The notes beneath the pieces are model-generated. The model was not told the DNA's origin. It saw only the letters and a list, made by a program, of their open reading frames with translations, and ran no database searches. From NCBI GenBank assembly GCA_001972305.1, contig BDDD01005132.1, positions 1 to 64,000 on the forward strand: a stretch of DNA of 64,000 nt, read 5' to 3'. The position numbers and the translations under genes were made by a program. The DNA comes from Cephalotus follicularis (taxonomy: Eukaryota > Streptophyta > Magnoliopsida > Oxalidales > Cephalotaceae). Positions 1 to 56,230 of the stretch are shown here, piece by piece; the first letter of the stretch is position 1; each line of letters starts with the position of its first letter.

Positions 1-1905
1 TCAGCAAGCACAAGCATTTCACAGTACAAGTCAAGCAATTACATATAATTACTTGATCAAATATATTTGTTTAAAATATATTATTCCGTTCGCAAGTTGT
101 AATAAGTTGTAAAACTTAAAACAATACATTTCTCTGTCTTTGGAAATACTTCCCCAATCATTTCGAAAATATATACATTCATAAATTATACATTTTCGCA
201 AATTACATTTGGTTTCGTAATCAAACCCTTAAAACATGTCATTGGAAATACTTCCCCATTCATCTTGAAAATATATAATTTCATATGTTGTCAAATATAC
301 ATATTCGTGTACAAATGATCATAATGATCATACAAGCTTTTCAAAATGGTTAACACTTTCATAAAAGCAACCATAATGCAAATCATAGTAAAAATGCAAA
401 CATATGCTCATAATGCATCTAGGTTCGTTTCTAGAGTCGTTTCGGGTCTAACGGGTCCCATTCGAGCAAAATCCTACTGTCCAGGGAAAAAGGCGTCGAT
501 ACTATGTACAAGTATTCCCAGGCATTTTTGGACCAAAGACGTCGATGTCTTTACAAAGACATCGATGTCTTTTTCATACCAGAGAATATCAGTTCGTGAG
601 CCTTGATTCTAGAGGCTAAAATCCAACCTTTTAATCCCTTATATAAATGAATCCCACTATATGAACGTATAAGGAATGTTACTGGTTAATAGTAACACAA
701 CCAGAACATCAATCCGAAACCAGACAGGTAATTCCAAGCGGCTAAATGGCCATCTAAAACGAACATCACAGTTCTATAATTTCCCAGAAAAGGCGTCGAT
801 GTCTTTACAAAAGCATCGATGTCTTTTATATTTCACACAAAGGCGTCGACGTCTTCTCATAGACGTTGATGTCTTTACAACCCAGAATGTAATTTCCACG
901 ATTATAACACACCAATCCATTTCCAAATCAATCCTTTACACAACCAACACACATATTCATGTAATCATACATGCATGATTAACTCAGTGCATCACAGTAG
1001 CACTACAACAAGTCCAGAATCACAATCCATTCATTAACATGCAAATCCCCATGTTAATCATTAACTTAAAACTCAAAATGCATGTATAAATCCATCACTT
1101 TCCCCTACCTTATTGTTCCAAGTTAGGAACTAGAAGTCCACCTCTTTAAGTTCCTTAGTTCTGCCTACCAGCAGCTCCAAGATCCCTTAGCAACTGCTAC
1201 CCACGAGCTCCATTCTTCAGCTTAATCCAAGCTCAACAATGGTGGTTCTCCTTTTCCTCACACTCACTGTTTTTCTCCTTTTCCTTCTTCTGGTGTTTTA
1301 AAACGAGAGAGATAAGTGGGGAGGGTTGTTTTAGCAGGCCCCCTCGTGTTCTCTTCCACTTTCCAAGTTTCTGCATATTTCTTTTTGTTTTGTTTAACCT
1401 CTTTCTTTGCAAGTTGCATGTGAGGGTGGTAATCCCTTGCATGTTCCATGTGAGGGAAGGTTTTGGAACATGCCAGGCAACACACCATTGTGATTAACAC
1501 GTCACAATGCACTTGTAAAGGCATCTGGTAAAGCCCCATAGAAAATCCCCTTGCATGTTACTCTGCCGACGAAGAACGTGGCAGCCATTCTTTACAAAGG
1601 CATCGACGTCTTTCCTTAGACGTCGATGTCTTTTCCTTTTTTGTAAGAAGGTGTCGATGCCTTCTCTCAAAGTCGTCGTGCAGCTCACTCCCCAAAGGCG
1701 TCGACGTCTTTTACAAAGACGTCGATGTCTTTTGTCCCAAAACAGTGCCGTTTCAAACATCGACATACACACTCCCTCCCTAAATCAATATTTGGATCTA
1801 GGGACCCCTTTTGAATTGAAACTTCAACATTCTTATTAATTCAAGCTTATGATTACATCATAAATCGATATATTACATTAAGGGAAAAAAATACCAGGCG
1901 TTACA
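1..1905 (-). mobile_element. Partial LTR, family B' (chromovirus-type), minus strand
   Basis: Read on the minus strand the LTR starts at 1905 with TGTAACGCC and runs out of the window at base 1. Its order of landmarks matches the LTRs of element B at 17622-20271 and 23799-26498, but with clear divergence. Base 1 corresponds to roughly 1.9 kb into the B LTR, so about 0.8 kb of it should lie to the left of the window. It carries TCGA-centred palindrome clusters at 490-572, 791-875 and 1593-1735, including a perfect 18-bp palindrome at 555-572. No coding capacity is visible; short open frames here are chance products. Whether this is a 5' LTR of a complete element or a solo LTR cannot be decided. 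Confidence 0.85.
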
Positions 1906-1907
1906 TC

Positions 1908-4126
1908 TGTCGCACCCCGTTATTCCATTCACGTACAATGGGCCAGCATATGTGGTGATATCAGAAAATAAGCATAAAATAATATTTCGGTACAATCCAA
2001 AAGTAAAATTTTGCGGAAGCATTTATTTAACCGAAACATAAGCATAAGCCATCCGCACGCATCCCATACTACGTGCGGGTAAAACGACAGTTATTCCTCA
2101 TAAGGAAAATACATCAACGAGGTATGAACCGTTCAATACCAAATACAATACATCATTAATATAAATAAAAACCTTAAATCAAAGATAAGAAGCTCTCCAA
2201 GCTTCAGCAGCAGTCTCCAAAAGTCCTTGCTTAATCTGAAATTGTAGGGGTTAGCCGTTATCCTCACTTGGCTAAGCAAAATGATAATGTATGATAAGGA
2301 GTATATGAATGAAACATGTATGACAGTTTATATTAAAATAACATTTGAATGGGCCAATATATAAGAAACCATGCCAAGTGGCCATAAACAATCCATATGC
2401 AAGAATACCGCACAAGGGTACAATCAATCAGTCCAGTAGTTGTCCGAAGACCAGTATTGACTCAAGACGTCGCCAACCCCTGGCCTACGTCGAGCACCTA
2501 GCTATCACCCCAACTCTGCTGATGATAGGAGGCAAACAGTACCACCGGCATTAAGCAGGTAGCAAACAGTCACAGTGTGGGTCTAGCCAACTCCTGGCAC
2601 GTAGAACCATCCCCGTAGTCAGTGATGTCTCCTATCACTCAACTACGACAGTAAACATAGACAAGCAATTCAATCAGTGCAATCCATGTAATATTACATA
2701 TGTATATAATATGCAATAAAAATTGTTTTCTTTAGAAACATTAACAGTGCAGTAATCGTACCTCTCATAGGAGAAACGATCTCAGTAACAGTAGTGGTTT
2801 CCAATTCGGAAACAAAACAGTAAACAGTAAAAAAGTAGGTAGTAAATCAGTAGTTTCTTCAACAATAAGTGTTCTTTGTAAAGGATAGTAAATATCAAAG
2901 TTTTGGGTCCAAGTCCCTTAAATAGTTTTCAATCTTTAAACCATCAGTAGTAGTGGCGTTAATAGCACCAAACAGTATATATGCTAACATAAATAGTATA
3001 TGATCACCAAGTCTCTAATTCCATTTTCCAATTCTCCTTTGCTTTCTATGTCAATATCATTAATCTTCGATTCTTTGTTCTTAACTTGTTTTGACAGAAG
3101 ATATATATATATACATAAAATCAGTATGTATATACACACTAATCAATTACCATAATCATCATCTAGTTGCAGCAAGAATTACTAGAACTCTTAAGTCTCT
3201 AGTTCCATTAAACACTTCCATACTCCAACAATTTACTCAATCTCGAATTCATTCATTTAAGTATTTGACAGAAGATATGTAATACTTAGAAACCATTTAA
3301 GCATTTATCTAATCATTAACAATACTCAAAATCCATTCTAGAGAATATATCATAATTTACACTTGAATCATCACTACTTTCCATTTCAATTCCAAAGATT
3401 GTTATTCTAATCCATTAATAGAAGATATATAACATTTTTCCTAGTCATTTTATCATCAAAATAATAAAGAATTCGGATTTAGAACTTACCAAGTGTCTAA
3501 AGCTTCAAAGTCCTCCTTTTTTGAGCTTTCTAGTCCTCCAATGCAAGCTCCACTAATCCCTTTCTCCTCTCTGTGTTTTCTAACACTCAAACACCATTCT
3601 AATCATCTGATCTAAGTCCCCAAGCTTATAATTTCGTCAGATTTCCACCTACTCTCATGCACTCACAATTTTCTTTCATTCTTTCTTCCATCACATGCTT
3701 ACTCACTCCACTTTCTCTCTTAATTTATCATTTGCAGGTATTAGGTATGCAGAGAACATGCAAAACATTCCCCTTTTTGCATGTTCTGGCAGGTGGGGAG
3801 ACACAAGTGCCATTATCCCATCTGTCCATCTTGTCTAAGCACATGGCAGAAAATCTGTCCTGTCAAAACCAGTCGACTGGAATCAGTGGGCAGTCGACTG
3901 CCTTCTTCACGTGGCCAACAGTCGATTGTTACCCTGTGGCAGTCGGCTGTTTGGGCTAGATTAGGGTTTTCCAACTTTGATACATCACCAATTGCACATA
4001 TAATCATCCCCAATCAATTACCAATCATAGAATTCGGTATAATTGGATAAATAACTCAATTAAAATGTATATTTTATTTCAAAATTGGATCAATATACAT
4101 TAATTGAATTTTTTGGTTATTACAAC
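1908..4126 (-). repeat. 3' LTR of element A
   Basis: On the minus strand the LTR begins with TGTTGTAATAACC or TGTAATAACC (4127 or 4124) just after a purine-rich tract and ends with GGGGTGCGACA at 1908. Both termini and much of the interior resemble the 2.75-kb LTR of element C, but this copy is shorter (about 2.2 kb). It carries the CAGTCGACTG palindromes at 3869-3880 and 3890-3901 plus degenerate copies to about 3950. A 58-bp AT-rich stretch near 3090-3130 contains an ATATATATAT run. Nothing coding is seen. Confidence 0.85.
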
Positions 4127-4127
4127 A

Positions 4128-4141: not shown

Positions 4142-4172
4142 AAGAAATTTCGTCCTCGAAATTAACACGATA

Positions 4173-8427: not shown

Positions 8428-8431
8428 CTGC

Positions 8432-9251: not shown

Positions 9252-9254
9252 ATG

Positions 9255-9699: not shown

Positions 9700-12067
9700 G
9701 AGTCTCATTACTCACTATAATGACCAGAAATTTTCATTAGGAATTTTATGGAGATATGATTGTTATTTTGAGGTTGGCAAATATTTTAATGGACCCATAA
9801 TATGACCCTAATGCTCGGGGGGTTCGAGGGTTCCGCTCCCCAATGAGCGAACGGGGGGTCGGACTGCCCGGACAGTGGCCAGGGGCTAGGGGGCAGCGCC
9901 CTGGAAGGAAATTGAAATTCGCTATTTATTTTGGACCATTTCCTTATGGAAATGTGGTTGTTATAATTGTTGAATGACGTGTTGTGGCGTTGAAAACATC
10001 GACTGCAATGGGCTAAAGCGTCGACATTTTTATAAAAGCAGCAACGCTTATGCATGGCTAAAGCGTCAACAGAAATGTGCCAACGTATAAAAGGGAGAAA
10101 GCGTCAACAGTTTCTTCCTTTGTTATTCTCAAACCGTCGACGCTTATGCCTAAAAGCGGCAACGCTTTCCCCTTTGATTTTTACTTACCGTTGACACTTA
10201 GGCTCAATTTCCTTTGTTAAAAAGCGCTTAACTGACGACGCTTATGGTAAGCAGCCGCGCTTTAAGGCTAAAGCAGTGACACTTCACGTTTAACCTTCGA
10301 CGCTTTAACATTTTTAACATTTTGTGCGCCAGATGTCAACGCACAGACAAACGACTTACCTGATGAAGACAAGTGTCATTCTGATGGAGAAAACGACAAA
10401 TCGAAGGCGGCTGAACTCTTCCTAAAAATACGGGTAACGACTCAGTAGAAAATGTGCTCAGTAGAGAAAACGTGAGAGGGAGAAAGAGAGAGAGAGAGAG
10501 AGAGGAGAAAAATTGGAGAATTTTGCTGGGATTTCAGCATAGCAATTTCTTCAGTGTGGAGAAAAGAGAGAAGGAGATAAAGCGAAGTAAGGATTCTTAC
10601 TTATTTTTTAAGTATCAAATGTTCTGTTTTCCTTCCGATATTTCGCAACAGCTTGTTTTTATCAAGTATTTTATGTTAGTAAGGAAATTTTATCCTTTCA
10701 CTCCAAAGTTTCTTTGTAAGGATTCCTAATCACTTTTCCGAAGTCCTTTAAATTTTATTTTTATGCCAAAGTATATTATAAGATTATGCAGCAGACTGTT
10801 TTAATATATATTATACAATTGTTATAATTCCTGTATTTTAAATTCTGCAAAATTCTTGGCAAAATTATACATTTAAATTTCTGCTCATGTATTGCTACTA
10901 TATGAAACTTTATTATTTCGAAAAGTTACTGTTTTTAAGTTTTCTCTGGAATTAAATATTTTCATGTGAAATATCAATTTTACAAAATGTTTTACGAATT
11001 TATTTTTGTGAAAACATTGAGCTGATCAATCAACGTATCAAGAAATGACTACTTTTACGAAATGAGAAAAGGCAACAAACTGAGACGAACAACGACTGGA
11101 TTGCGATCCAGGGTGGATTAATCTAGTAAAAGATTAATATGAGCAGAGAGTGCTCATGGACATGCATGTGCCATAATATTATTCATCGGGTAGTGCATAA
11201 TGCACCGGTGAAGAATGGTTCAATTGGGTTATTTAAGTTTATAAAACCCCTCAGTTATTTATGAAATATTCTGAATCATGAGATATGATCAGAAAAGGCA
11301 ATGAATATGAAATGTGCTAGTTTTTATACCAGAAAATGATTTTAATGATGTTTTGTTTTCAAAGTATGGCCATATTATATGCCAAAAGAACGTATGATTT
11401 GGAAAATGTTTTTAATCGTTTTCAAGTCTGGTGGTATTGTACACCAGAAAAAGTAAGGTTTTGAAAATGTTCTGTTTTTATAAAAACTAGAAGGTGATTT
11501 TCAACGATGTTTTTAAAATGTATGATTCTGAAAACGTTTTGATAAAGAATATAAAAAACAATGGTTTCGATAACGTTTTACGACTATGATTCTTACTAAG
11601 CTATTTGAGCTCACTCCTTTCAATGTTTCGTTTTTAAATAAATTTTCCAGGAAGCGTTGAACATAGAATTGCGAGCTTTAGAGGAAGTTCGTAAAAGAAG
11701 TGTTAGAAAGGGAGTATGTTATGTACATCTGCTGTTCATGTTATGATAAGTTAATGTTTTCCGCTGTGTAAGGTGTTATGACAGATGATGTATAGAGGTA
11801 TGTTTTAATATTGTAAGAATTTCCGTTGCGAAATGAAACGGTTTTAGAAATGATCATTACGGTTTTTAATGGTTTCAAACGAGAAGCATGATGATTCTAA
11901 AGTTTGATGTTAAAAGTTGTAAACATATCCTGTGAAGTTTAGCGTTTAAAGTTGTAAGTATATTTTGAGGTTTTGAGGTTATTGGATATAATGAATCACA
12001 GAGATGATTAACTAATTTGATGTTGATTATGATTGTTATGGATTATGATGATTTCAATCATAGTATA
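9700..12067 (+). mobile_element. Chromovirus-type LTR, unclassified (solo or truncated)
   Basis: I assign this by layout rather than by a matching partner in the window. It has a GC-rich block with GGGGGCAGCGCCCTGG near 9889, a cluster of AAGCGTCGACGCTT-like motifs at 9985-10310, and a GA microsatellite at 10482-10505 in a likely untranslated leader. Long AT-rich stretches follow, then ACTAAGCTATTTGAGCTCACTCC near 11597, a block typical of the distal part of gypsy LTRs. No pol or gag is present. Both ends are uncertain; the right end abuts the TGTAACGCCC start of the next LTR at 12068. No gene is seen in these 2.4 kb. Confidence 0.45.
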
Positions 12068-12355
12068 TGTAACGCCCGAGATTTTTGCACAATATAATAT
12101 TTCAATTTTATTGAAATATTATTATTGAATTAATGAGAATGGCATAAATCTTGACTTAAATGATGCCTTCCAAAATTTAAAAGGTTGGATTTTAGAAGAA
12201 GGAATGATGGAGATATTAAAGGAATTGTAAAAGGTGCAATTAGAGGCAAAACGGTGCAGTTTTGGACTAAATGCATCGACGTCTTTGTAAAGACGTCGAC
12301 GCCTATGGTCGCGAAGGGCGCACGAAAATGCATGAACATGCACGTCGATGCAGAC
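12068..12355 (+). repeat. 5' fragment of a B-family LTR, cut by the SIRE-like element
   Basis: It begins TGTAACGCCCGAG and follows the start of the element B LTR: GAATTAATGAGAATG, GCAGTTTTGGA, then the palindrome pair at 12272-12303 and a CACGTCGATG block. It breaks off at 12355/12356, where the SIRE-like LTR terminus TGTAGGAAG begins. The rest of this B-family LTR is not found in the window. Confidence 0.8.
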
Positions 12356-13608
12356 TGTAGGAAGTCTAGAGGGGGGGTGAATAGACTTATAAAAATTAAC
12401 TAGCAAAAATACCATAATCAATTCAAATAACTCAAACACACAATTGCGGAAATGTAAAGAGTGTAGGGTTGAGAGAATTGCAAACGGATGTATAGTGGTT
12501 CAGCAAACCGCCTACGTCCACTCCCCAAGGCCTCCCCTTGAGTATTTCACTAGGTATGCCCCAATCCGGGCTTGAAACTCCAACCGAGCTTCAACAACCT
12601 TCGCTCCAACCAAGCGAATTACAAATTTGCTCCAACCGAGCAAAACAAGAGACAACCTCTCTTGTATGTGTGAAATAAGTGTTTAAAGGATTACAAATTC
12701 GCAACGAATTTGTTTACAATATAGCTCAATTCTAACAAAGCTTCTAGTGTATAGGAAATGTAAAGTTTAGAGCTTTGTAATGTGTGTTGTAGCTTTGATG
12801 TGTTCTCTTTTGAAGTTTGAAATCTTTGGGATTGTGCTTGAGATGACTAGAATGAATGTTCACTTTGATTGCAAGAGATTCGCCCAAGAATTCTCCACTT
12901 TGGCATTTATACTTGTGCTCCAACGGATCTATTTTTAAAGTCTGTTACAAATCCAGTCGGTTGGATTTATACGACAGTCAGCTGGATTTGATGGCGCGTA
13001 TATTTGAATATAGCCGTTGGTGATGGACAGTCGGCTGCATCCTCTGGGCAGTCGGCTGGTGGAGCTTGGCAGTCGACTGGTTGCTCTGTTCCAGTCGGCT
13101 GCGGAGCTGAAATTGGATTACAGAAGCTACTGCTTGAATTTGCACAAATATGGACAGTCGGCTGGATTAACTGGCAGTCGTCTGGTGCCCTGCTTCAGTC
13201 GGCTAGATGAGGTGTTAAAATGATACAGAAGCTACTGCCTGAAATGTGCACCTATGGCAGACGACTGGACCCCTGTGGCAGTCGGCTGTCTTGGCCTGGC
13301 AATCGACTGGACCCCCTGTGGCAGTTGGCTGGATCATGTGTTCTGTAATTTCTGGGCTTGGTTGAAGAACCAGTCGGCTACACAACCTATGGCAATCGAC
13401 TACTCAACCTTGGGCAGTCGACTGGATTGCTTGCCAGTCGGCTGGATTGCCCTGTACCTGCAAAAATGATCTTGGCACAACTTTGAACATAAAATCAAGT
13501 GAGTATATGAAGTTGTAACTCATAAAATTATGCATACAAGTAATCTATGTTTGTTAATCATCAAAATAACATATGTTAATGCAATTAACGGGGTGGCAAA
13601 TGCCAACA
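12356..13608 (-). repeat. 3' LTR of the SIRE-like element
   Basis: The LTR is 1253 bp, TG...CA, starting TGTTGGCATTTGCC on the minus strand at 13608 and ending CTTCCTACA at 12356. A TATA box (TATAAATG) lies at 12904-12911. The region 12953-13445, upstream of that TATA on the minus strand, is packed with CAGTCGACTG / CAGTCGGCTG motifs, at least 15 by eye. Two open frames on the plus strand here are products of this repeat. Confidence 0.8.
12904..12911 (-). promoter_or_regulatory. Putative TATA box of the SIRE-like LTR
   Basis: The minus strand reads TATAAATG. It lies just downstream, in the LTR's own orientation, of the TCGA palindrome cluster (13445-12953). Placement fits U3; there is no direct evidence of transcription. 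Confidence 0.5.
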
Positions 13609-14135: not shown

Positions 14136-15377
14136 TTACATAAACAAGGTTTGAAAATACAAAGAAAACACATGAGAATGCAAGTGTAGCTCAAGAGGAG
14201 TCGGGTGGAGGGTGCTGAGGGAATGCATTTTGAAACATCTGAATGATGTTGGCTTGTCCCTGAAGGATATGGGCTTGAACCTGAATGATATTTGCTTGTC
14301 CCTCACTAAAATGGTCCATTCTTCCTTTGAGGTACTCAATATCGGCTTGAGCAAGATCCATCCTAGCCTGAAGTGATTCCAGGGTAGGCCTGCTGCTGCT
14401 GCTGCTCGTGCCAACACTTGGACGTATCTCAAACTGCTAAGCATCGTCCTTATCGTCATCCTCATCATCTCCAGCTCTAACATTAGCTTGCTCTCTCATT
14501 TGCTCTCTACCCCCACCTTGTAACTTAACCTATACACCATCCTCAAACCGAATGTTACAAAGTCTAAGTCCAACCTTATTAACCAACTGCTTATGGGATG
14601 GTTTGACACATTGCTCATCATCAGGAATGTCAATGTTAAGTGATGCAAAAACTACCATAAAGATAAGTGATGCAAAAACTACCATAAAGATCCTACTAAG
14701 AAGCATAGGATAAGGAGTGTGATTTGGTCTAGACAACAAGTGGTTGATAATAAGGTAAGGAAGGTTTATTAGAGTTCCATTCTTGACACATGCAACGAAT
14801 TTAAGGTCTCGCTATGAAGGAAGAGTGTGCGAGCCTTCTCTTGGTAGAAAAGTGTTTGTGACAAGTAGGAGAATGATCCTAGTGGCAATAGGGAGGTGAC
14901 TACTAGTCACGGTCATGATCGGATTGAAATCCGGACGCTCTAAACATATCCCTAAAGCTTCTCGTTTTTCTACATCATTAAAGTGAGTAATGCCGGCATT
15001 AGGAATTCCTAGGGTTTCGGCTATCAAATCAGGGGTTATTGATATAGGATGGCCTAGAACAACGGAATTAGCAATGCAAGTAGTAGAAGACTCTAGGTTA
15101 GCATAAAACAACTTCACTAATCTAGGGTATATGACATGTGATGAGCAAAGGTAGTCAAACCAACCCATTGTTTCTAACCATGTCATGACAATAGCTAGAT
15201 TACTAATAAGAACATCTCTAGTCAACCATTTCTCATAATGAACTTGACAGAGTTAAAAACTGAGTTATACCTAATCTCTTTCTCTTTGGAGAGAAAGAGG
15301 GTGTTGTCGTAGTCCAATTCCGCTTGTGAGCCCCTTGGTTGCCTAGAACCCATGCCCCTTTGTCTCTTTGGTGCCAT
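14136..15377 (-). pseudogene. Putative plant transposon protein (SIRE-associated ORF), broken
   Basis: The start is the ATG at 15377 (MAPKRQRG). The frame runs to about 15245, shifts by one base, and continues as a 137-residue segment (15225-14812) with YPRLVKLFYANLE, LGHPISITPDLIAETLGIPN and FLPREGSH. A further segment near 14740-14690 has LINLPYLI and PMLLSRIF. The order of these blocks is that of the putative plant transposon protein family (Pfam Transposase_32), found between pol and 3' LTR in SIRE-type elements; I name it from pattern, not from a search. Its molecular role is not established. At least one frameshift and several stops break it. The C-terminal part is Gln- and Ala-rich and low in complexity. 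Confidence 0.65.
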
Positions 15378-15526
15378 ATGATCAAATGCAGGTTCGGATT
15401 TGAGAGAGTTTTAGGGTTTTACAGTTTTTAAATTGAGAGAAAGTGAGAGAGGCAGGAGGAATTCAGGTATTAAAACCCTGATTATCGCAATTCCAGTCGA
15501 CTGGGCCATTAATGGCAGTCGACTGG

Positions 15527-15689: not shown

Positions 15690-16587
15690 TCTGCTGCATA
15701 ATCTTATTGTTTATCTTGCACAAAACAAAACCATTAGTGGCAAAAATGTTATCATCAAAATTAGGATTTGAGACATTAAATGTTAACAAAGATTAAAGGT
15801 GGCTACAAAGCTTGTCACTAGCTTGTACTCTTGTTTTGTGACCTAGCCTCACATATTTATACATAACATCCCATGCAACAAGAAAAGGAAAAATTGTAAC
15901 CTACTTCAAATTGTTTAAGGAAATAATTACAAGCAGAAAACGTTCCATTTTTGCTATAAGGGGTCGTAAGCATCGACGCTTACGTCTTAGGCGTCGATGG
16001 TTTGACATTTGGCGTTGACGCTTTTGTATATTGAAGGCGCTAAGCGACGACGTGACTCTTGCGTTACGGGGGATACTTCAGTGTTAAGCGTCAACGCTTA
16101 CAAGCAAGGCATCGACGCTTAACATGGCATTGACACCTTCCTCCTTGCACGTTAACATTTAAGCTACTGTCTGATTTGTGCATTTTTGGCGTTGACGTCT
16201 TGATCAAGGCATTGATGCCAAAACATTAAATTCCCAGCACATTGACGCGAAAAGGATTGCAATTGACGAAAATCATGAGACTGCAAACTTGTTCCATGGA
16301 AAATTGTAAAGCGTCGATGCTTCCTTTCAAACCGTCAGCGCTTTGGAGTTAGGCATCGATGCTTATGTTGAAGGCGTCGCTGCTTTCAGTGCATATTCTG
16401 TAGATTTGAACTTCTGTCCTCAATTTTTAACCAATTTAAACCATTCTTCATGCACTTTGGTCTGTTGACTCTTGTACCTGAACAACAATGCAACACAGCC
16501 AAAGTAGTCTATTACAAGCATAAAAATATCAGAAATAGATCATTAAAATTAACACATTTTTATGCTAAACAAATACCCCCATACTTG
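15690..16587 (-). mobile_element. Athila-like LTR fragment with PPT, minus strand
   Basis: On the minus strand the LTR starts at 16571 (TGTTTAGC) and is preceded by a purine tract (16572-16587, CAAGTATGGGGGTATT), the same junction as in element E at 47834-47849. The first 140 bases follow the E LTR closely (AAAATGTGTTA, GACCAAAGTGCA). Beyond that the U3 differs, with AAGCGTCGACGCTT-like motifs at 15967-16385. A TATA-like TATAAATATG (minus) lies near 15855. The distal LTR is not recognisable. The left boundary is a guess. Element D starts at 16595. Confidence 0.6.
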
Positions 16588-17621: not shown

Positions 17622-20271
17622 TGTATCACCCGGTATTTTCCTAATTGTAATATTTCGTTTTGAGATGTAATCTTAAACTTGAATTAATGAGAATGTTGAG
17701 ATTTCGAACTCAAAAGATATTCCAAACCCTAAATATTGTTTTGGGAAAAGGAATGTGTGTGTTAAACTAGAAAACGGCGCAGTTTTGGAAGAAACGCGTC
17801 GATGACTTTTTAAAGACGTCGACGCCTATGGGAACCGAGATACACGTGAATGCATGGCATACACATCGATGTAAGGTGAAGACATCGACACCTTCCTGTG
17901 AAAAAGGAAAAGACATCGATGTCTAAGGAAAGGCGTCGACGCCTTTGTAAAGAACATCTGTCATGATTAACACTGACAGAATGACATGCAATGGGCAATT
18001 TTTGAGGCATCATCCAGACGCCTTGACATGCACAATGCGACATGTTGATCATGCTAGTGTGTTGCCAGGCATGCTCAAAACTTGCCCCTCACCTGGTGCA
18101 TGCAAGGGGATATACCATCTTCCTCTGCAACCTGCATAAGGGAAAAGAGAAAAGGACCAAAACCAGAGGAGGGCGAGCACGTGAGGGTGTGGTTATCTAT
18201 GAAGCAAAGAGAGAAAGGGAGGGTCTCTAGCTTAATAAAACACCTCTTCCTTCATCTCTCTCTTAGCTAAAAATAGTGAGAAAGAGAAACAGTGAGTGGG
18301 AGGAAGTGAGAGTCACCATTGTTGGGCTTCATTAGAGCTAGTGACTTAGAGCTCGTGGGTCAAAGTTGCTGAGAGGATCTTGGAGCTACTGTGTCCAGAA
18401 CCTGGGAACTCAATGAGGTGGACTTTCCAGTTCCTAACTTGGAACAACAAGGTAGGGGAAAGTGATAATCTTATACATGCATTTTGGGTTTTAAGTTAAT
18501 GAATACCATTGATGATTTGCATGTTAATGGGTGAATTATGATTCTGGACTTGTTGTGATGACTACTATGATGTACGGAGTTAACATGCATGTGTAAATTA
18601 CATGAATATTGAACTGGGTTGTGTATGGATGATTTTGATGATGGCTTGCTGTGTTAAAACTATGGACAAAATGTTCTGGGTTGGATAAACGTCGACGTCT
18701 ATCCATAGATGTTGATGTCTTCGTGTTCGTATGTAAAGACATCTATGTTTGAGTAAAAGCATCGACGCCTTTTCTGGGTAATCATAGAACTGTAATGTTT
18801 ATTGTAGATGGCAATTTAGCCACTTGGGATTACATGTTTGATTACGAATTGACGTTCTGGTTATACATCCTTAAAACCAGTAACTTTTCTTGCGCCTCGA
18901 GAGGGCGAGTTTCGCTTATATGGGGATTTAGGGGCTAGATTCTTCCCTCCAGAATCCAGACTCGCGAACTGATACCTCCTGGTATCATAAAGACATCGAT
19001 GTCTTTGGTCCAAAAACGTCTGGGAATAACTGTACATGGGATCGACGCCTTAGGGTAAAGATGTCGACGTCCTAGGGATAGACATCGACGCCTATCCCCC
19101 TGATCAATGGAATTTCACTCGAATGGGACCCGCTAGACCCGAAACGACTCTAGAGCGATCCTAGATGCATTCTGAGCATATGTTTGCATTATTACTATGA
19201 TTTGCATTATGGTTGATTTCTAAAAAGTGTTAACCATTTTGAAAAGCTTGTATGATTATTATAATCATTTTTGTACGAAAATGTATATTTGTCAACATAT
19301 GGATTTATATATTTTTGAAATGATTTGGGAAGTATTTCCAAAGACGGAGAAATGTTTTTAAGGATTGATTACACAATCAAATGTATTGGTTTAAGTTTTA
19401 TAACTTATCACAACTTGTGAACGGAGTAATATATTTCAAACAAATATATTTTATCAAGTAAATATATTTTATTGCTTGACTTGTACTATGCAATGCTTGT
19501 GCCTGTTGATTACTCAGCCGCTGTGCTAGTAACTTGCTATTGGTTTAGCCGTCCTGCTAAGCAACATACGGAGGACATGCTCCAAAACCGTTCACAAACG
19601 GGGATGGGGTAAGAGTGCATGACGTGGGTCCAGGAGGTGGCGACGGTCATGACGACTTGTTTGTCTGGTTCCTTTTGGGACACATTTACTGCTTGTGTTG
19701 ATGCAACTTTTGAGGTTATACCTGTACTGTGAGCATGCGTATATTTTTATATGTATATACGGACATAAAATTACTGTGAAAATTACATGTCATACTGCAT
19801 CATAATGCATTTATTCATGATACTCATTATCATATACCTCGAACTGTACTTATAAGTTTATTCACTTAGCTGAGTGAGGACAAAGGCTAACCCCTACTAT
19901 AACAGATTGATGCAGTGTGTTTTGATATGGAGCATGCAAGGAGACTTAAGGAGAAGACTTAGTTGTTCCTTTTATTTGATGTACTGAATTAATGAAAATT
20001 GGTCATGTTAATTGGATTATTGTAACATGATTTATTTTATCTCGTACTGTATTTTCACGCTCCGTTTTTGGGCGATCGATAATGAGGTTGGGTTTTATTA
20101 TAAACTTGTTGAGCTTCTCGTAGTATGGGATGCGTGATGTATGTTTAAATTACGTGAATGCTTCCACTATCGGGACATTATTTATTGGTAAAATTGCATG
20201 AGCTGAATTATGTTATGTTGATTGCCTTACCTATGTATATGTTGTCTTAATGTGGAAACGGGGGCGTGACA
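17622..20271 (+). repeat. Element B 5' LTR
   Basis: 2650 bp, TGTATCACCC...GGGGGCGTGACA. It carries palindrome clusters at 17795-17945, 18688-18775 and 18988-19095. A likely core promoter lies between the first two: AGCTTAATAAAACACC near 18228 followed by a purine/pyrimidine-rich leader with GAGAAAGAGAAACAG. There is one copy of the 18-bp palindrome at 18988-19005. Confidence 0.92.
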
Positions 20272-38414: not shown

Positions 38415-41166
38415 TGTAATAACCGTAAATTCAATTTGTGTACATTGTAATATTGATTAATAAAATGTGCACACATTTGAATTTAATGTCCAATTATTAT
38501 AAAAATTGTGATTGGCGATTGCTTGGGATGAAAGGATGTACAATTGGTGAGGTATCAAACTTAAGAAACCCTAAAACAGCTCGACAGCTGACTGTCACAG
38601 GGGAACAGTCGACTGTCTGAGGCGAAAGTGGGCAGTCGACTGCCTATTGAAGACAGTCGACTGGAATGGTACAGGATAGGCGCCTGGCAGACGCAAAGAC
38701 AGTGATGCCAAGTGTTCTAAATGTGGCATGCATGCGAAATATGTGTCATCAGCTGCCATGACATGCAAGGGGAGTGCCTTGCATGTCCTCTATTCCCTCT
38801 GCAAGGATTGCAGACCTGCAACCTGCAAAATAGAAGATAAAAGGTAAGAAAGAGATGCATGTGAGAGAGAGAAGGAAATGAGAAATGAGTGATTAATGAG
38901 CCTGGCGAATTCTAAAGCTCCAGGCCTTTATATCAGCTGTCCAGGAGCTGAATGTGTGTTAGAAAACACTGAGAATCGAGGAGGAATTGCTGGAAATCAT
39001 TGGAGCTTGCATTTGAGGATTTAGAGAACTCAAAAAAAAAAGAGACTTTGAAGCTTGGACTTCTCCTGGTAAGTTCCAATTCGAGCTCCCTGCTTAAGTA
39101 GTACTGTTAAGAATGTGTCTAGGAAGGTTAGTTATCTTCTGTTAACATGGTATAGGATTAACAGTTTCTAGAATGGAATTGAAATGATAATGGAAGGGAG
39201 GAAGAAACATGAGCATGAAACTTAGAGGATTGTCAACAACTCTAATTCGAATTGTGGTCATGATATAGGCTTACTGATATATACACATCTTCTGTCAACA
39301 CATTAAGATCAAGGAATCTGAAATTGAATGATATTTGACAAGGAGTTAAAAAAGGGAAAGTTGTAAATGGAAGTTTAAGACTTTAGGGACTTATAATAAG
39401 CTGTTGTTGAAGTAGTAATTGCGTCTGGATAGATTAGTTAACCTACTGACTAGGTTACTGAACCTCTAAACATCAATTGCATAGATTGAACCTGCTGGAA
39501 TTAAAGGATTGTTGGTGAAAAGGTTGGAAACTCAAAGAGAAAGATCATTTCAATTGATCTTGGGATAAGCTATTAAGGTAGGGGTAACGATATGTTTTGG
39601 AAGATATGAGCATGCATATCATGTATGTTTATTTTTCTGCATTGTTGCATGTTTGATTGGATTTGTATTAGAGATTGAAAATTACAAACTGCTACTGCCT
39701 GCATTTTCTGGGCAGAAGGAGTCGACTGTTCTTTATGGCAGTCGACTGCTCAACCCTATCCAGTCGACTGATCTACATGGAAGTCGACTACTCAACCAAA
39801 ACAACCAACTGTTCTTAAAAGAAGTCGACTACCCTGGGTAAAAATTGCTAATATAGGTTCTATTGAACCTCAATTTTGAATGTAATTAACTTGACCTCCA
39901 TACGGATGATTAGAACAATCAATCCTGGCCTTATATACAATTACATCCCAAAATTAATCAATGTACGCACTCCTTATGGGAGTTGCATATGAATGACTAT
40001 GAAATGCTATTCCTTGTGAATCCTTGAATTGCTACTGTCTTGTAATGATGTTACTGTATATGCTACCTTACATTAGTATATACTGTTTTGGTGCTATTCA
40101 ACACCACTGCCAATTATATTTCAATGATTGAAACCAACTATGGGCTATGTACCTAAATTATGATATCAACTATCATTTTCAAATGAAAACCTATTGTTTA
40201 AGGAAATTATTGATTTCCCTCCTATGAGAGGTACCACCTGTTTTATTCTCCAATCGAGAACCACTACTGTATTGATATAATTTTCCTAATATGAAATGTA
40301 CGGTAAATGAATTGATATATGTTTCTAAAGAAAACAACTTTTATATTGCATATTATTGATATATGTAATATTATTATTGAAATTCTTGAATTGTTTGTCT
40401 ATGCTTATTGCCGGTAGTCGAGTGATGGCTGAGGTCACCGACTACGGTAGGGATCCTGGGTGCCAGGAGTTGGCCAGAGTATCTCCCAAACTTATCTGCA
40501 TTGCAGATCTTATTTGTTAAACTACCTGCCAACACCGGTAGTAAATGTTACCCTATCTATCATCTTCGGAGCGTAGGGTGATAGTTAGGTGGTGCATAGT
40601 TGGTGCTAGGAGTTAGAGACATGTGACACCAAAACCAGGATGAATTGATTGTACCCTTGTGCGGTATTCTTGCATATGTATTGTTTATGGCCACTTGGCA
40701 TGATTGCTTATATATTGGTACATTTAAATGTTATTTTAAATATAAACTGTCATACATGTTGCATTCATATATTCCTTAGCATGCATTATCTTCCTACTTA
40801 GCCAAGTGAGGACAACGACTAACCCCTACAATTTCAGATTAAGTGAAGACTTGGAGCTTGCCGCTGAAGCTTGGAGAGCTTCTATCTGTTATTCGACTTA
40901 AGGTTGTTGTTTCTTTTATGATGTACTGTGTTTTTTGTATCGAACGGTTCATACCCCGTTAATGTTGTTTTTCCTTATGTAAGGATAATTGTTGGATTAT
41001 GCCTGCACGTAGTATGGACCGCTGCGGATGACTTGTATTTATATTCCGGCTTATCGAATGCTTCCGCAAATTTATTTATGAATTGTTGCTGGAATATTAC
41101 TATGCTTATTTCTGATATCACCATATATGCTTGTCTGTAATGGAATTTGAATAACGGGGTGTGACA
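38415..41166 (+). repeat. Element C 3' LTR
   Basis: 2752 bp, colinear with the 5' LTR. Palindromes are at 38585-38665 and 39718-39835. Several are better kept here than in the 5' copy (e.g. 38633-38642 is a full CAGTCGACTG while the 5' copy ends CTTC), and others worse. Confidence 0.93.
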
Positions 41167-41524: not shown

Positions 41525-42844
41525 TGTTTAGCATAAAAATGTGTTATTTTTAATGATCTATTTGTAATGTTTTTATGCTTGGAATAGACTACTTTGGTTG
41601 TGTTATATTGATTTTCAGATATAAGTGCAAAAGGACCAAAGTGCAAGAATACTTCCCAAAGTTGTGCAAATTAGAGCTTGAAAGTGTAAAGATTGAAGAA
41701 TTGACAAATTCTGCAGAAACATAGAGAAACGCGTCGATGTTTTTCATACGGATCGATGTCTTTTCTGGGTTTGCATTAAACGCATCGATGTCTTTTGTTG
41801 GGGATCGATATCCTTTCTGGGATTGCAACTTATCTTCAAGAGCTATGAAAAAGACATCGACATCTTTTCATCAAACAGATCGACGTCTTTGTGAAAATTT
41901 GACCTGTAACTTTTGGATCAAAACGCATCGACGTCTTTCATCAAAAGGACCGATGCCCATTACGCGCATCTCAGCAAAATGCATTTTTTTGCAAAACGCG
42001 TTGATGTCCAACCAAAGGCGTCGATCTCTTCTTCTGCAACAGAAATAGAAAGTTAGATTTTTTGCCAGATTTTGTAACTAGGATTGATTTATTTCCGTTT
42101 TTGATCAATTTTATAGTATAAAAACAATACATGGCCGGCCAAATAAGAGAGAGTGTAGAGAGGGCTTGTAGAAACCCTATTTTCCTTCTTTGTCAATTTT
42201 AGTTTATTTTACAATGTTTAGTAGCTAAACTCTTCAAGGTTTTGGGGACGAAAAAAGCCTAGATTGTTATTGTTTCAGTTCGATCAATAAAAATCCTTGA
42301 ATGTTTGATTTGTTCTTCAAATATTTTTGCCTTCGCACACACTTTGTCTGCCTGATTAAAATCCACAAACATCTTGTCGGTGAAGCTGAACATTGATGAA
42401 TAAATGATGCTTAATTCAATAAACGGAGTCTACTCATACGATTTGTCACAACGAACACACTTCGTATAGAGCTAGCATGTCTACTCATACGTCTTGCCGT
42501 AGTTTCCGTACTTCGTATAGACCTAGCATGTCTACTCATACGTCTTATCATCACCGTTGCACTCTGTATCGACATAGCTACCGCTGATTATCAAGGTATG
42601 ATCGTTCAATTTAAGGGAATTGTTCAATACAATCTACGGTGAGTTTCTATACCCTAAAACCGCTTCTTCATTATATATTTTCTTAGCTTCTATTCATTGG
42701 TTTGATAGTTCATCTCAAAATTGGTATACTTCGCCTAGGTTGAATATATTATAACTAGTTTATCATTTCCCTGCGTTCGACCTGTTACTACATGATCCGT
42801 GCACTTGCGTCTATAAATTTTAAAACATTCTTTTTACGTGAACA
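41525..42844 (+). repeat. Element E 5' LTR
   Basis: TGTTTAGC...GTGAACA, 1320 bp. Palindromes of the GACGTCGACGTC/GACATCGATGTC type are at 41733-42035. The TATA box TATAAAAA at 42117 follows them. In the distal part three tandem 51-bp units start at 42427, 42479 and 42530, each beginning GTCTACTCATACG and carrying a TTCGTATAGAC- or TCTGTATCGAC-like block. Confidence 0.93.
42117..42124 (+). promoter_or_regulatory. Putative TATA box, element E 5' LTR
   Basis: TATAAAAA about 80 bases downstream of the last palindrome of the U3 cluster. The same box is in the 3' LTR at 48441-48448. Confidence 0.55.
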
Positions 42845-47848: not shown

Positions 47849-49168
47849 TGTTTAGCATAAAAATGTGTTATTTTTAATGATCTATTTGTAATGTTTTTAT
47901 GCTTGGAATAGACAACTTTGGTTGTGTTATATTGATTTTCAGATATAAGTGCAAAAGGACCAAAGTGCAAGAATACTACCCAAAGTTGTGCAAATTAGAG
48001 CCTGGAAGTGTAAAGATTGAAGAATTGACAAATTCTGCAGAAACAGAGAGAAACACGTCGATGTTTTTCATAGGGAATGATGTCTTTTCTGGGTTTGCAT
48101 TAAACGCATCGATGTCTTTTGTTGGGGATCGATATCCTTTCTGGGATTGCAACTTATCTTCAAGAGCTATGAAAAAGACATCGACGTCTTTTCATCAAAC
48201 AGATCGACGTCTTTGTGAAAATTCGACCTGTAACTTTTGGATCAAAACGCATCGACGTCTTTCATGAAAAGGATCGATGTCCATTACACGCATCTCAGCA
48301 AAACGCAATTTTTTGCAAAACGCGTCGATGTCCAACCAAAGACGTCGATGTCTTCTTCTGCAACAGAAATAGAAAGTTAGAGTTTTTGCCAGATTTTGTA
48401 ACTAGGATTGATTTCTTTCCGTTTTTGATCAATTTTGTAGTATAAAAACAATACATGGCCGGCCAAATAAGAAAGAGTGTAGAGAGGGCTTGTAGAAACC
48501 CTATTTTTCTTCTTTGTTAAATTTAGTTTATTTTACAATGTTCAGTAGCTAAACTCTTCAAGGTTTTGGGGAAGAACAAAGCCTAGACTGTTATTGTTTC
48601 AGTTCGATCAATAAAAATCCTTGAATGTTTGATTTGTTCTTCAAATATCTTTGCCTTTGCACACACTTTGTCTGTCTGATTAAAATCTACAAACATGTTG
48701 TCGGTGAAGCTGAAAATTGATGAATAAATGATGCTTAATTCAATCAACGGAGTCTACTCATACGATTTGTCACAACGAACACACTTCATATAGACCTAGC
48801 ATGTCTACTCAAACGTCTTGCCGCAGTTGCCGTACTTCGTATAGACCTAGCATGTCTACTCATATGTATTGTCATCACCGTCGCACTCCGTATCGACATA
48901 GCTACCGCTGATTATCAAGGTATGATCGTTCAATTTAAGGGAATTGTTCAATACAATCTACAGTGAGTTTCTAAACCCTAAAACCGCTTCTTCATTATAT
49001 ATTTTCTTAGCTTCTATTCATTGGTTTGATAGTTTATCTCAAAATTGGTATACTTCGCCTAGGTTGAATATATTATAACTAGTTTATCGTTTCCCTGCGT
49101 TCGACCCGTTACTGCATGATCCGTGTACTTGCGGCTATAAATTTTAAAACATTCTTTTTACATGAACA
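47849..49168 (+). repeat. Element E 3' LTR
   Basis: 1320 bp, colinear with the 5' LTR. Palindromes are at 48055-48358, TATA at 48441, and tandem 51-bp units from about 48749. Its palindromes are partly better kept, e.g. 48338-48353 (AAAGACGTCGATGTCT against a broken copy in the 5' LTR). Confidence 0.93.
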
Positions 49169-54150: not shown

Positions 54151-54163
54151 GCCAATTTTGAGT

Positions 54164-54171
54164 TATAAAAG
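54164..54171 (+). promoter_or_regulatory. Putative TATA box, element F 5' LTR
   Basis: TATAAAAG, 12 bases after GCCAAT (54151-54156) and immediately downstream of the tandem array. The same order is found in the 3' LTR (TATA at 61951-61958). Confidence 0.65.
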
Positions 54172-54708: not shown

Positions 54709-54720
54709 TGGTAACAGAGC
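54709..54720 (+). other. Primer binding site of element F
   Basis: TGGTAACAGAGC, one base off the tRNA-Met type TGGTATCAGAGC, lies two bases after the LTR. Confidence 0.8.
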
Positions 54721-56230
54721 CTACCACATCAATCATAGTTGAATTATAATGCCTAGGATGATGATTGATTAGAAGTTTAATTAGAAGAGAAGTTTTGTGG
54801 TTAAACTCATTCCTTTAGTGCCTAAGTGTAAGTTTTGATGTTTTGAATGAAATTGGATGAAATTCAAAACTGTTTGTAATGCTTTCTTGTTTGAATTGGC
54901 ATTGGATGTTGTTTGAACATGTAGAGGATTATTTTACGATAAGTACCCATAAAAGGGAATGCTATTCGGAGTTTGTTTAAATAGTTTGAATGAATATGTG
55001 AATTGCATAGGCCATCTTATTTTGGACATGTTTGGAACCTGCAACATGCAGTAATAGGATCCCATATGTTTGCATAGTGCAAGTGTTAAGGATACCTAAG
55101 TCCAAAAGTGGGAATTTATGCAGATTTTGTCATGGTGACATTTCTGCAGCAGGGAAAACCGTTGACGTTTTTGGTTAAAGCGCAGACGGTTAGGCCATTT
55201 TCATAGGTAAAGCGCCGATGGGTTTGTTAAAACTGTCGACGCTTGCGTGTTAACCGCCGACGCTTTAAACTTATGCGTCGATGCTTAAGACTGAATTTAC
55301 ACGAATCTTAAAATTTGGAATTTTGAGCTATGTCACTTAAAGGATAAATAATCATTACTTGATTTAGTGGGAGTTAAACCCATAAACAACTTCTGATATT
55401 AAATTTTGAAATTGATTATTATAAAAGGCATTTGTGTATTGTTTTAAAGTAGTACTAGATATGCTTTAATTATCTTTGCCATTCTATTGATTTATTTTAG
55501 AAATAAATCCAAGGTGCATAAGATGGATAGTCCAAATACACGTCATGCATGCAAAGCCGTAATTAATTAAAATTGGGTAATGAAACCAATGAATTAATTA
55601 AAGGCTTGATAATTAAAATGTGAGACCTTAAAATTCCCTCATTTAAATTAATAAATCTGAACGTAGGGACACATGGAGTGGTTCCCTGTGGCCTTCCATA
55701 ATCTTCGTTGAATGGCCTATATGGATTATTGGTTTGTCATGCCCTAGCCGAGGCTGGTAATCTGTAGAAGCTATGTCAGCGTCGGTGTAGGCCACCGCAA
55801 AGGGTGGCTATGTTTTAGCACTTGGACACGCCTACGTGTGGGTGTTAAAACTAGTGCATTCCAATGAAGAATATGGGTGTTTGATTTATCTTGATTCTAA
55901 TGGTTTGTTATGCCCTAGCTAAGGCCATATTGAATTGAGAGGCCGAATTCGATGATTCAATCTTGCATTGGATGCAAATTGGTAAGACAGCCTACCCATT
56001 GGATATATCATGGTTTGTCATGCCCTAGCTGAGGCCATAATATGATTGCAATGGATTCCAATCCCCACTATGAAGTAGGACTTCTCGAGTTCAGTATGGG
56101 GGTATGGAATACGATTAGAATAGTGGGAGGGATCATATACACTAAAGACCAAGTGTTATGATAGTCATATATTAAAATTTAGAATATATGTTGAGTCATT
56201 GTTTTTTATTTCCTTATCTAGGATGCTAGA
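54721..56230 (+). other. Element F leader with motif cluster and three leader repeats
   Basis: No gene in 1.5 kb. A cluster of AAGCGTCGACGCTT-like motifs is at 55155-55295. Three copies of GGTTTGT(C/T)ATGCCCTAGC(C/T) followed by GAGGC or AAGGC are near 55729, 55902 and 56011. Each sits near a line that reads like GGA...TCCAATCC, similar to the D leader near 29313. Confidence 0.65.

Follow-up and report, generated by a model that had tools for sequence, protein, structure and literature searches.

How do LTRs of retrotransposons that are not close relatives come to carry the same clusters of palindromes, and what might read them? The question is raised by a 64,000-nucleotide stretch of Cephalotus follicularis DNA (the window), in which an earlier note had described LTR clusters centred on TCGA.

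Enrichment in LTRs

The clusters are confirmed here, and the pattern extends beyond the window into samples from elsewhere in the genome. Of 120 perfect palindromes of at least 10 bp in the window, 31 were centred on TCGA (19 GTCGAC, 10 ATCGAT, 2 TTCGAA), with 26 in LTRs, five at 12.4-16.6 kb and none elsewhere; dinucleotide shuffles gave an expectation of at most 0.3 for each of these regions. The check that the note had proposed, against shuffles and internal regions, showed strong enrichment in LTRs only: 79 sites of the motif class (class sites) were found in 26.0 kb of LTRs (1.3 expected from shuffles) and 4 in internal regions (1.9 expected), and the 26 class sites outside assigned LTRs and internal regions all fell within 12.4-16.6 kb. 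Boxes in the window were thus limited to LTRs, the leader of copia element F and the 12.4-16.6 kb stretch. When 16 palindromic 4-mers were compared, TCGA alone showed arm complementarity of at least 0.31 at all eight positions from ±3 to ±10 (0.31-0.49; chance 0.26); with the outer arms alone as query, TCGA was central in 30/35 LTR-like matches with at most one mismatch and 44/70 with at most two. The box is 10-18 bp long, with a GTCGAC or ATCGAT core, symmetric arms and the observed consensus AAAGRCRTCGAYGYCTTT, and it occurs in AAAG, CAG and AAGCG versions, the last of which looks like a AAAGRCRTCGAYGYCTTT-type box minus one base per arm. The 14-mers quoted in the note are consensus forms; as exact words, GACGTCGACGTC was absent and GCGTCGACGC occurred once, at 17933. 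In 25 10-kb samples drawn from this genome blind to content (237 kb in total), we counted 276 class sites (15.9 expected) and 84 perfect TCGA palindromes (9.9 expected); across the first 21 samples, the three commonest 10-bp palindromes after TA microsatellites, and four of the top five, were TCGA-centred.

Arrays and the elements that carry them

Table 1. Box arrays and an associated ORF in the window.
Feature	Position	Strand	Details
B' LTR (1-1905), AAAG-version boxes	497..1723	-	12 class sites, 0.10 expected; centres 497, 543, 563, 797, 817, 847, 867, 1604, 1624, 1655, 1702, 1723; mostly ~20 bp pairs
C-type solo LTR (1908-4124), CAG-version boxes	3874..3944	-	centres 3874, 3895, 3923, 3944; gaps 21, 28, 21
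LTR-like stretch (8436-12067) upstream of A internal region, mostly AAGCG-version boxes	10022..10298	-	
B-type LTR start fragment (12068-12400), two AAAG-version boxes	12277..12297	+	20 bp apart
Sirevirus-type 3' LTR, 16 CAG-version boxes	12958..13439	-	10/15 gaps at 20-22 bp
Transposase_32 ORF piece (PF20167), Sirevirus-type element, env-like position	14815..15252	-	E 1.6e-12
Two CAG-version boxes upstream of Transposase_32 ORF, Sirevirus-type element	15498..15520	-	
Unassigned fragment with AAGCG- and AAAG-version boxes	15974..16378	.	mostly 21-bp spacing
B 5' LTR (17622-20271), AAAG-version clusters	17800..19086	+	~176-330, ~1069-1156, ~1373-1480 counted from 17617
B 3' LTR (23799-26498), clusters as in B 5' LTR	23977..25303	+	
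C 5' LTR (30929-33684), CAG-version clusters	31103..32343	+	LTR positions ~170-250, ~1307-1421
C 3' LTR (38415-41166), CAG-version clusters as in C 5' LTR	38589..39825	+	last box (39825) found only under looser matching
Athila-like E 5' LTR (41525-42845), AAAG-version boxes	41735..42022	+	LTR positions 203-507
E 3' LTR (47849-49169), boxes as in E 5' LTR	48059..48346	+	
Copia F, class sites between LTR and gag	55163..55279	+	55163, 55237, 55258, 55279

Class sites per LTR numbered 12 in B', 12 and 14 in B, 9 and 7 in C, 6 in E and 4 in the solo LTR, with 4 in F as a whole (Table 1). The first box centre lay at LTR position 175-211 in B, B', C, the solo LTR and E, and further clusters followed beyond LTR position 1 kb in B, B' and C. 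The LTR-like stretch at 8436-12067 held 7 class sites (0.20 expected), six of them in the tabulated interval and the seventh a lone CAG match at 10793. Element A of the note did not survive as a single unit: 1908-4124 is a separate C-type solo LTR inside a B-type element, occupying the PPT/LTR junction of the element that has B' as its 3' LTR, flanked by GATGT on either side (1903-1907 and 4125-4129), and neither a partner LTR nor an internal region of its own was seen. The 5' LTR of E is followed by a PBS-like TGGCGTCGTTGCCG. For copia F, boxes are present in the leader, as the note had them, but none occur in its LTRs; a fifth site (55216) appears under looser matching, giving gaps of 53, 21, 21 and 21, and the relative L030 has fuller arrays. 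The note had also placed a cluster upstream of each recognisable TATA box. With a simple pattern, this holds for B (a single match at LTR position 1690/1730, past all boxes), E (match at position 593) and the Sirevirus-type element in sample L024 (TATAAAA at 4939, last box centre 4890), but not clearly for B', C, A3 and A5, where there are several matches, some before the boxes.

The CAGTCGACTG element at 12.4-15.7 kb fits Sirevirus anatomy, and the SIRE-like assignment is supported by multiple PPT octamers near the 3' LTR (AGGGGGAG, in a pattern that also admitted AGGGGGAA; 13980, 13949 and 13908 on the minus strand of the window, and 9199, 9238 and 9477 in L024). The PPT adjoining the window LTR is AGGGGAAG; the PPT region of F differs from the Sirevirus octamer. 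The window Transposase_32 piece, matched in one of the 25 samples, is 67% identical to L024 7917-8348; there, too, a CAG array (7494-7669) immediately precedes the Transposase_32 ORF, in the same layout as in the window element. The only ORFs seen in L024 were a gag-like one (judged by eye) and Transposase_32, with no F_pol match.

Versions are indeed common to elements that are not close relatives: AAAG and CAG are each found in Ty1/copia as well as Ty3/gypsy elements, and the same version is shared by Sirevirus-type and Tekay-type LTRs and by Tekay-type and Athila-like LTRs. E shares only short matches of 12-40 bp with B, as does the Sirevirus-type stretch with C, so one inherited insertion does not account for the sharing, in agreement with the earlier note. 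In homologous arrays that precede gag, related copia elements differ in arm version, and at equal LTR offsets the Tekay LTRs of B and C type have different versions.

Spacing and conservation of boxes

Gaps between neighbouring boxes were 19-23 bp in 112 of 185 cases. The 71 gaps of at least 26 bp were phased at 10.25-10.5 bp, a degree of phasing matched by 0/20,000 uniform draws, with 10 gaps at 30-34 bp (three turns), 16 at 50-54 bp (five turns) and none at 35-39 or 55-60 bp; 9 at 46-49 bp and 5 at 68-70 bp were out of phase. After deduplication (the longest member of each of 16 motif-masked homology groups), 20 of 26 longer gaps were in phase (45% expected, p = 0.0014). The test was not significant on the window alone (p = 0.097), and when arrays were grouped more coarsely, by joining those linked through their boxes, P was 0.026 at 10.25 bp and 0.19 at 10.5 bp, with odd-turn gaps in phase in 5/12 cases (5.5 expected). 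Spacing mostly at 19-23 bp and a period of ~10.3 bp in the longer gaps suggest that boxes tend to face the same side of the helix.

Units of five arrays picked by hand agreed with one another at 0.73-0.93 in their boxes and at 0.18-0.41 in the adjacent spacers. Boxes also exceeded flanks in sister LTRs B'/B (0.85-0.88 vs 0.76) and A3/C (0.88-0.95 vs 0.67-0.68), and across window and samples box cores were above flanks in 27 of 34 between-element alignments, equal in 2 and below in 5, these rows overlapping and not being independent. Lower values were found for copia arrays L032/L040 (0.82 vs 0.85) and both comparisons of E with L045 (0.79 and 0.83 vs 0.85). When the two LTRs of a single insertion were compared, a setting in which selection has stopped, boxes were not better kept than flanks (cores higher in 1/6 pairs). 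Arms vary independently within a version (22/49 vs 23.7, 27 vs 28.1, 40 vs 40.6, 32 vs 31.6; CAG version likewise) and no compensatory changes were found within the AAAG and CAG versions examined, as expected if a protein reads the half-sites; from one version to another, the two arms change jointly.

A proposed dimeric reader and its alternatives

From these patterns we infer, with a probability of roughly 0.6, that the boxes are cooperative cis-regulatory binding arrays, read by a dimeric and probably host-encoded protein that would activate or open the LTR promoter. Each box would be a site for a protein binding DNA as a symmetric dimer, and two-turn (19-23 bp) or other whole-turn gaps would align bound dimers on one DNA face, where they could cooperate. 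The arrays may serve as upstream activator or chromatin-opening elements; in some copia elements their place of action would be the LTR-gag interval, and the Sirevirus type would have a further one upstream of the extra ORF. Use of the same versions by both superfamilies, together with the missing candidate gene in the Tekay-type elements examined, makes one host protein, or a few paralogues, the most likely reader. Of the two roles suggested in the earlier note, a dimeric host factor is thereby strengthened by the helical phasing, by boxes that are alike between unlike spacers and by the lack of compensatory change within versions, while a VANC-like system is left without a candidate gene among the ORFs of at least 130 aa in the window Tekay-type elements. 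We know of no host protein that fits all box versions; CBF/DREB would be one candidate.

Element-encoded anti-silencing proteins of the VANC kind, with versions switching as protein and motif co-evolve and a Transposase_32 protein or an ORF elsewhere acting across elements, have a low probability in our judgement. VANC targets are tandem short non-coding motifs that vary between related elements, with one set in an unrelated element (passages of PMC5735166), and the version differences between related copia elements, and between B- and C-type Tekay LTRs, are of this kind; in L024 a CAG array also sits next to Transposase_32. However, the window Transposase_32 piece matched a single sample and has CAG-version arrays next to it, and Pfam scans of the window Tekay-type ORFs returned gag-pol domains only: ORFs of at least 130 aa matched such domains, lay in a gag-pol-aligned stretch (22081, 22729 and 33789, without Pfam match) or, in two cases outside the Pfam scan, ran antisense to gag-pol. 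It is quite improbable, too, that the palindromes work as RNA or single-strand hairpins, with folded array transcripts supplying small-RNA production or dimerising, a role put forward for the LTR palindromes of maize Sireviruses. Predicted RNA folds were stabler than shuffles in 6/6 array stretches (z -2.6 to -6.0), the maize palindrome regions are small-RNA hotspots (passages of PMC10760457 and PMC5311732), and joint arm changes between versions would suit pairing; yet compensatory pairing is absent within a version, sense-strand mismatches at ±3 of the AAAG version comprise 18 A.C and 9 G.U pairs, all 23 singly changed Sirevirus-type CAG boxes have C.A and none U.G, and hairpins would not predict helical phasing.

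Those 23 boxes, of two single-change forms, all share one orientation (sense CAGCCGACTG), so that the Sirevirus-type arrays are partly descended from oriented tandem units. This orientation, the 20-bp unit found once in the B 5' LTR and as three identical tandem copies in the B 3' LTR (25166-25225), and the 7/34 alignments without excess box conservation, those of E and the copia arrays included, would agree with functionless minisatellites whose ~21-bp palindromic units expand by slippage and then decay. We consider this very unlikely, as boxes resemble each other where spacers do not, three- and five-turn gaps cannot be derived by losing whole 21-bp units, the same core recurs in otherwise non-alignable LTRs, and window boxes are confined as described above. 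Exchange of modules between elements by recombination or template switching, rather than independent gain, is unlikely; it bears on where the arrays came from and does not conflict with a role in binding. Identical versions in different LTR types favour it, whereas matches between the sharing LTRs end at 12-40 bp.

If a shared host factor does bind the arrays, the activity of much of the genome's retrotransposon load, across long-diverged clades, would be under a single protein family. The helical phasing makes a binding-array reading directly testable, as version switching in homologous arrays does for co-evolution of element and reader. More tentatively, and with considerable doubt, both superfamilies might share a community-wide code of few helically phased TCGA-centred boxes read by one dimeric protein family, with relatives changing version together at set positions, in the manner of elements that follow paralogous readers or evade repression.

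Comparison with known systems

F carries a 23-24-bp array of TTCTTGAA-type sites ending 9 bases 5' of TATAAAA, the layout of an activator array, as with HSF sites in ONSEN (passages of PMC3907296). The boxes would resemble the ONSEN heat response elements as host factor sites in an LTR promoter, here putative, but the HSF site is nTTCnnGAAn, and in the window only F was seen to resemble it. VANC targets share the arrangement of short non-coding motif arrays varying between relatives, but VANDALs are DNA transposons with their own VANC gene, and the VANC motifs (YAGTATTAY, AGTTGTCC/AGTTGTAC) are not palindromes (passages of PMC5735166). Maize Sirevirus LTRs also have palindrome clusters in the LTR cis-region (Bousios et al. 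2016, as cited in passages of PMC10760457 and PMC5311732), though the motif there is CACCGGAC...GTCCGGTG and was explained by secondary structure and small RNA.

Of known systems, the Sirevirus palindromic repeated motif comes closest; as a precedent that the earlier note does not mention, it reduces the novelty of our findings. According to passages of Bousios et al. 2010 (PMC2829016), many palindromic copies form a cluster that begins 200-400 bp inside the LTR and precedes a TATA box, with further copies before the env-like gene; here the start is slightly early. The Sirevirus trait of at least eight palindromic copies with dyad symmetry per element is found in B', B, C and 12958-13439, against only 4 in the solo LTR and F and 6 per LTR in E. 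The core is GTCGAC/ATCGAT here, whereas 12 of the 13 Sirevirus motifs listed have CGG-CCG and two are TCGA-centred (Vitis CGGTCGACCG, Tnd-1 ACAATCGATTGT), and the source's passages on distance or interval mention no spacing rule. The same passages term the motif Sirevirus-specific and report its absence in the classic copia elements used for comparison, whereas boxes here occur in Tekay-type B and C, other gypsy elements, Athila-like E, and copia F, L030, L032 and L040. What is new is the presence of boxes in Tekay-type and Athila-like LTRs and other copia elements, their phasing and their version switching, by which a motif class reported as Sirevirus-specific is widened to Ty3/gypsy elements.

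LTR elements and enrichment of boxes

Self-comparison, target-site duplications and Pfam domains mark the window as plant DNA dense in LTR retrotransposons. The name Tekay-type is provisional, being given from the domain set (RVP_2, integrase and SH3, with a chromodomain in A) and LTR size rather than from a tree. The Athila-like assignment of element E would likewise follow from its domains and terminal signals, of which we take the PBS-like sequence and PPT region to be marks of that clade. Region A holds a B-type internal region (88% identical to B over 4125-6269); a reading of A as B pol with a C LTR was dropped, the structure being resolved as the insertion of a solo LTR.

LTR elements and related features in the window
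Feature	Coordinates	Strand	Remarks
B, putative Tekay-type chromovirus	LTRs 17622-20271 and 23799-26498		Duplication GTAGA
C, second putative Tekay-type element	LTRs 30929-33684 and 38415-41166		Duplication CGATC
E, putative Athila-like element	LTRs 41525-42845 and 47849-49169		gag and protease domains, PBS-like TGGCGTCGTTGCCG, PPT region
F, copia element	LTRs 52531-54708 and 60276-62496		
B', 3' LTR of the B-type internal region of A	1-1905	-	
C-type solo LTR	1908-4124 (1903-4129 with GATGT on each side)	-	Exactly at the PPT/LTR junction of the B-type element
3' part of a putative Sirevirus-type element	12.4-15.7 kb	-	

Three identical 20-bp palindrome units stand in the 3' LTR of B (25166-25225) and one in its 5' LTR (18989-19006); their copy number was altered at or since insertion. 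Just upstream of the first box, B-type LTRs carry the near-palindrome AAAACGGYGCAGTTTT (17771-17786, 23948-23963 and 12248-12263; in changed form at about 1739-1754 on the minus strand), its centre 22 bp from that box in B. The LTRs of F hold a 23- to 24-bp tandem array of AAGCTTCTTGAACAAGCC (53828-54154 and 61567-61941, about 14 and 16 copies), within which TTCTTGAA fits the heat element nTTCnnGAAn; a NAC-type reading (CTTG..CAAG) is presumably also possible. In the 5' LTR of F, nine bases separate the array end from TATAAAA at 54164.

The boxes are 10- to 18-bp palindromes centred on TCGA, in three versions named by their arms (AAAG, CAG and AAGCG) and defined after the window had been read as AARRCRTCGAYGYYTT (≤2 mismatches), CAGYCGRCTG (≤1) and AAGCRTYGAYGCTT (≤2). 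Matches to these versions (class sites) numbered 109 in 63,639 window bases. The LTRs (25,995 bases) held 79 against 1.3 expected from dinucleotide shuffles, in agreement with the earlier note, which had reported such clusters in LTRs of unrelated clades. Internal regions (23,133 bases) held 4 against 1.9 expected, all between the LTR and gag of F, and unassigned DNA (14,511 bases) 26 against 1.5, all at 12.4-16.6 kb; the three-version scan gave no class site in the LTRs of F. Window counts alone overstate the case because the versions were taken from the same window; version-free counts of perfect TCGA palindromes, and genome samples, are less subject to that bias. Across 25 samples of 10 kb each, drawn from the assembly that contains the window (237 kb without N), there were 276 class sites versus 15.9 in shuffles (maximum 25) and 84 perfect TCGA palindromes of at least 10 bp versus 9.9 (maximum 17). 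Class sites occurred in 20 of the 25 samples (11.8 in shuffles), and in 18 of the 25 at least three sites lay within 120 bp of one site. When 10-bp palindromes of the first 21 samples were ranked version-free, two TA repeats were followed by CAGTCGACTG (18), GCGTCGACGC (11) and ACATCGATGT (9), then ATTTTAAAAT (7) and ACGTCGACGT (6). Among 8-bp palindromes of these samples, TCGA cores formed 11 same-core pairs 19-23 bp apart versus 2.6 expected; of 16 cores, only TATA and ATAT (microsatellites) otherwise showed a clear excess at this distance. The AAAG palindrome occurred in 23 viral contigs with one palindromic match each, which we judged to be chance; the paired CAG pattern was found in none, and a Tekay integrase piece found no relative among viral contigs.

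Sharing of versions between clades

The AAAG version was found in Tekay-type B, B' and the 12068 fragment, in Athila-like E, in gypsy-type samples L025 and L029 (where arrays occupy a repeated LTR-like stretch or directly follow an integrase match) and, ahead of copia gag, in L032 and L040; L038 7850-8076 probably belongs with these carriers. The CAG version was present in Tekay-type C, the solo LTR, L047, L048 and the Sirevirus-type elements of the window, L024 and L040. The AAGCG version lay between LTR and gag in copia elements F and L030 and ahead of copia gag in L046, and its probable gypsy carriers are L043 (a relative of E by its protease) and the 8.4-12 kb stretch beside the PBS of A. 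Arrays in L032, L040 and L046 were placed relative to gag, their LTRs not having been located.

Versions also differ at corresponding places. Alignment between B-type and C-type LTRs is confined to the ends and some short patches, yet the two types carry different versions at nearly identical places (first two box centres: B, 179/199; B', 183/204; C, 175/196; solo LTR, 181/202). In the copia gag-upstream arrays, the downstream flank could be aligned across the five sequences, the first box and the last box each occupying shared columns (gaps interrupt the middle, most of which F lacks); arms were mostly AAGCG-type in L030, L046 and F and AAAG-type in L032 and L040. Box clusters about 1 kb apart were seen upstream of copia gag (L030, L032, L040) and in the LTRs of B, B' and C.

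Conservation and helical phasing

In five hand-picked arrays (4-10 units each), boxes agreed at 0.73-0.93 and adjacent spacers at 0.18-0.41. Between sister LTRs, box identity was 0.845-0.875 versus 0.76 in flanks for B'/B and 0.88-0.95 versus 0.67-0.68 for A3/C, values equalled by 0.9-9% of shifted masks and biased upward, the sites having been chosen by motif match. The two LTRs of one insertion, which share this bias but are less diverged, showed no box excess (boxes/flanks: B, 0.955/0.946; C, 0.922/0.965; E, 0.944/0.958). A circular-shift test scoring gaps as mismatches was uninformative and was replaced by comparison of aligned columns. The comparison covered all 40 alignments of ≥400 bp with ≥12 core columns (overlapping rows, hence not independent). 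Of 34 between-element rows, 27 had higher identity in cores than in flanks, two had equal values and five had lower core identity; of six within-insertion pairs, one had a core excess. Rows without core excess included E versus L045 and, all copia arrays, L032/L040, L032/L038, L038/L040, L024/L030 and L042/L046. Core CpGs of B' were retained in the B 3' LTR at 11 of 11 positions versus 11 of 24 outside boxes (P = 0.002); the difference was not significant for the B 5' LTR (8/10 versus 13/24) or the other five pairs.

Gaps between neighbouring boxes were pooled from samples and window, clusters repeating a three-gap run being dropped (70 to 57). Of 185 gaps, 112 measured 19-23 bp; the 71 of at least 26 bp clustered near 31, 41-42, 50-52, 62-63 and 72-73 bp. 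For periods of 10.25 and 10.5 bp these 71 gaps gave V of 0.40 and 0.32, respectively, values that none of 20,000 uniform draws reached; nine gaps at 46-49 bp and five at 68-70 bp were out of phase. A grouping in which arrays were linked by the boxes themselves (16 groups, one with 41 clusters) gave weak or no phasing; phasing was clear when arrays were regrouped on motif-masked flanks (16 groups, the largest with 21). One member per masked group was drawn at random 500 times, giving about 18 longer gaps; V then averaged 0.64 at 10.25 bp and 0.51 at 10.5 bp (at the mean, P < 0.0001 and 0.0006; at the 5th percentile, P = 0.001 and P = 0.008). With the longest member per group, 20 of 26 longer gaps were in phase (P = 0.0014). 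The window alone gave no significant phasing (P = 0.097), so genome samples were needed for this test. Since odd-turn phasing is not obtainable by losing whole 21-bp units, we take it to mean that boxes are constrained to lie on the same helical face.

Origin and possible readers of the arrays

We regard the arrays as putative cooperative binding arrays for a dimeric, probably host, protein, at a probability of roughly 0.6. Descent from one inherited insertion, which the earlier note had named as a refuting case, was rejected because alignments between non-homologous LTRs end at 12-40 bp. Plant LTR elements have a weak preference for palindromic insertion sites, according to PMC6911290, and an origin from such sites was rejected as it leaves arrays inside LTRs unexplained. 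Hairpin pairing was rejected as the origin of symmetry, although predicted folds are stable, since arms showed no compensation within versions: opposite-arm complementarity equalled the independent-arm value at all four variable pairs of the AAAG version (49 window boxes), and the CAG-like set (64 distinct 20-mers, window and samples) was likewise independent at ±3 to ±5. Arms were correlated when all versions were pooled (300 distinct 20-mers, no arm filter), because each version is itself symmetric, and at ±4 to ±8 in the mixed non-CAG set. Versions thus alter both sides together, but single boxes show no compensatory repair; hairpins, though less likely, may still play a part.

For a binding array, the arm pattern would fit half-sites recognised by a symmetric protein. 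The GYCGAC of the CAG version (matching CAGYCGACTG) recalls what we take to be the CBF/DREB core, and CBF/DREB was rejected as reader since ATCGAT-centred boxes would not fit; to our knowledge, none of CBF/DREB, ARF, bZIP and RWP-RK fits all versions. Single-change CAG forms on the sense strand of Sirevirus-type arrays were always CAGCCGACTG (window, 6; L024, 11; L040, 6) and never CAGTCGGCTG, so these arrays, which are relatives and not independent, are oriented.

Relation to Sirevirus motifs

The feature class is already known: Bousios et al. 2010 (PMC2829016) describe palindromic repeated motifs 200-400 bp into Sirevirus LTRs, where they precede a TATA box; additional copies stand before the env-like gene, and 2 of the 13 motifs are TCGA-centred. 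Apparently new, as judged from the open-licence literature, are the occurrence of boxes in gypsy elements and in other copia elements, which share versions, and the phasing. The window element at 12.4-15.7 kb is judged, from 67% amino-acid identity and its PPTs, to be of the same family as the Sirevirus-type element of L024, in which a gag-like ORF was present and no pol was seen. At 7698-8885, L024 encodes a Transposase_32 protein in the env-like position, split by an in-frame stop and preceded by a box array. The layout of L024 resembles that of Sireviruses, with PPT octamers at 9199, 9238 and 9477, an LTR from about 9487 and a CAG array from 9667. Close to the other copy, TATAAAA at 4939 follows the last box by about 45 bp, as in the Sirevirus pattern, its LTR position being inferred because the duplicated stretch ends at 4869 with the sample edge. 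The array that precedes the Transposase_32 ORF is of the CAG version (7494-7669) and matches the Sirevirus copies before the env-like gene.
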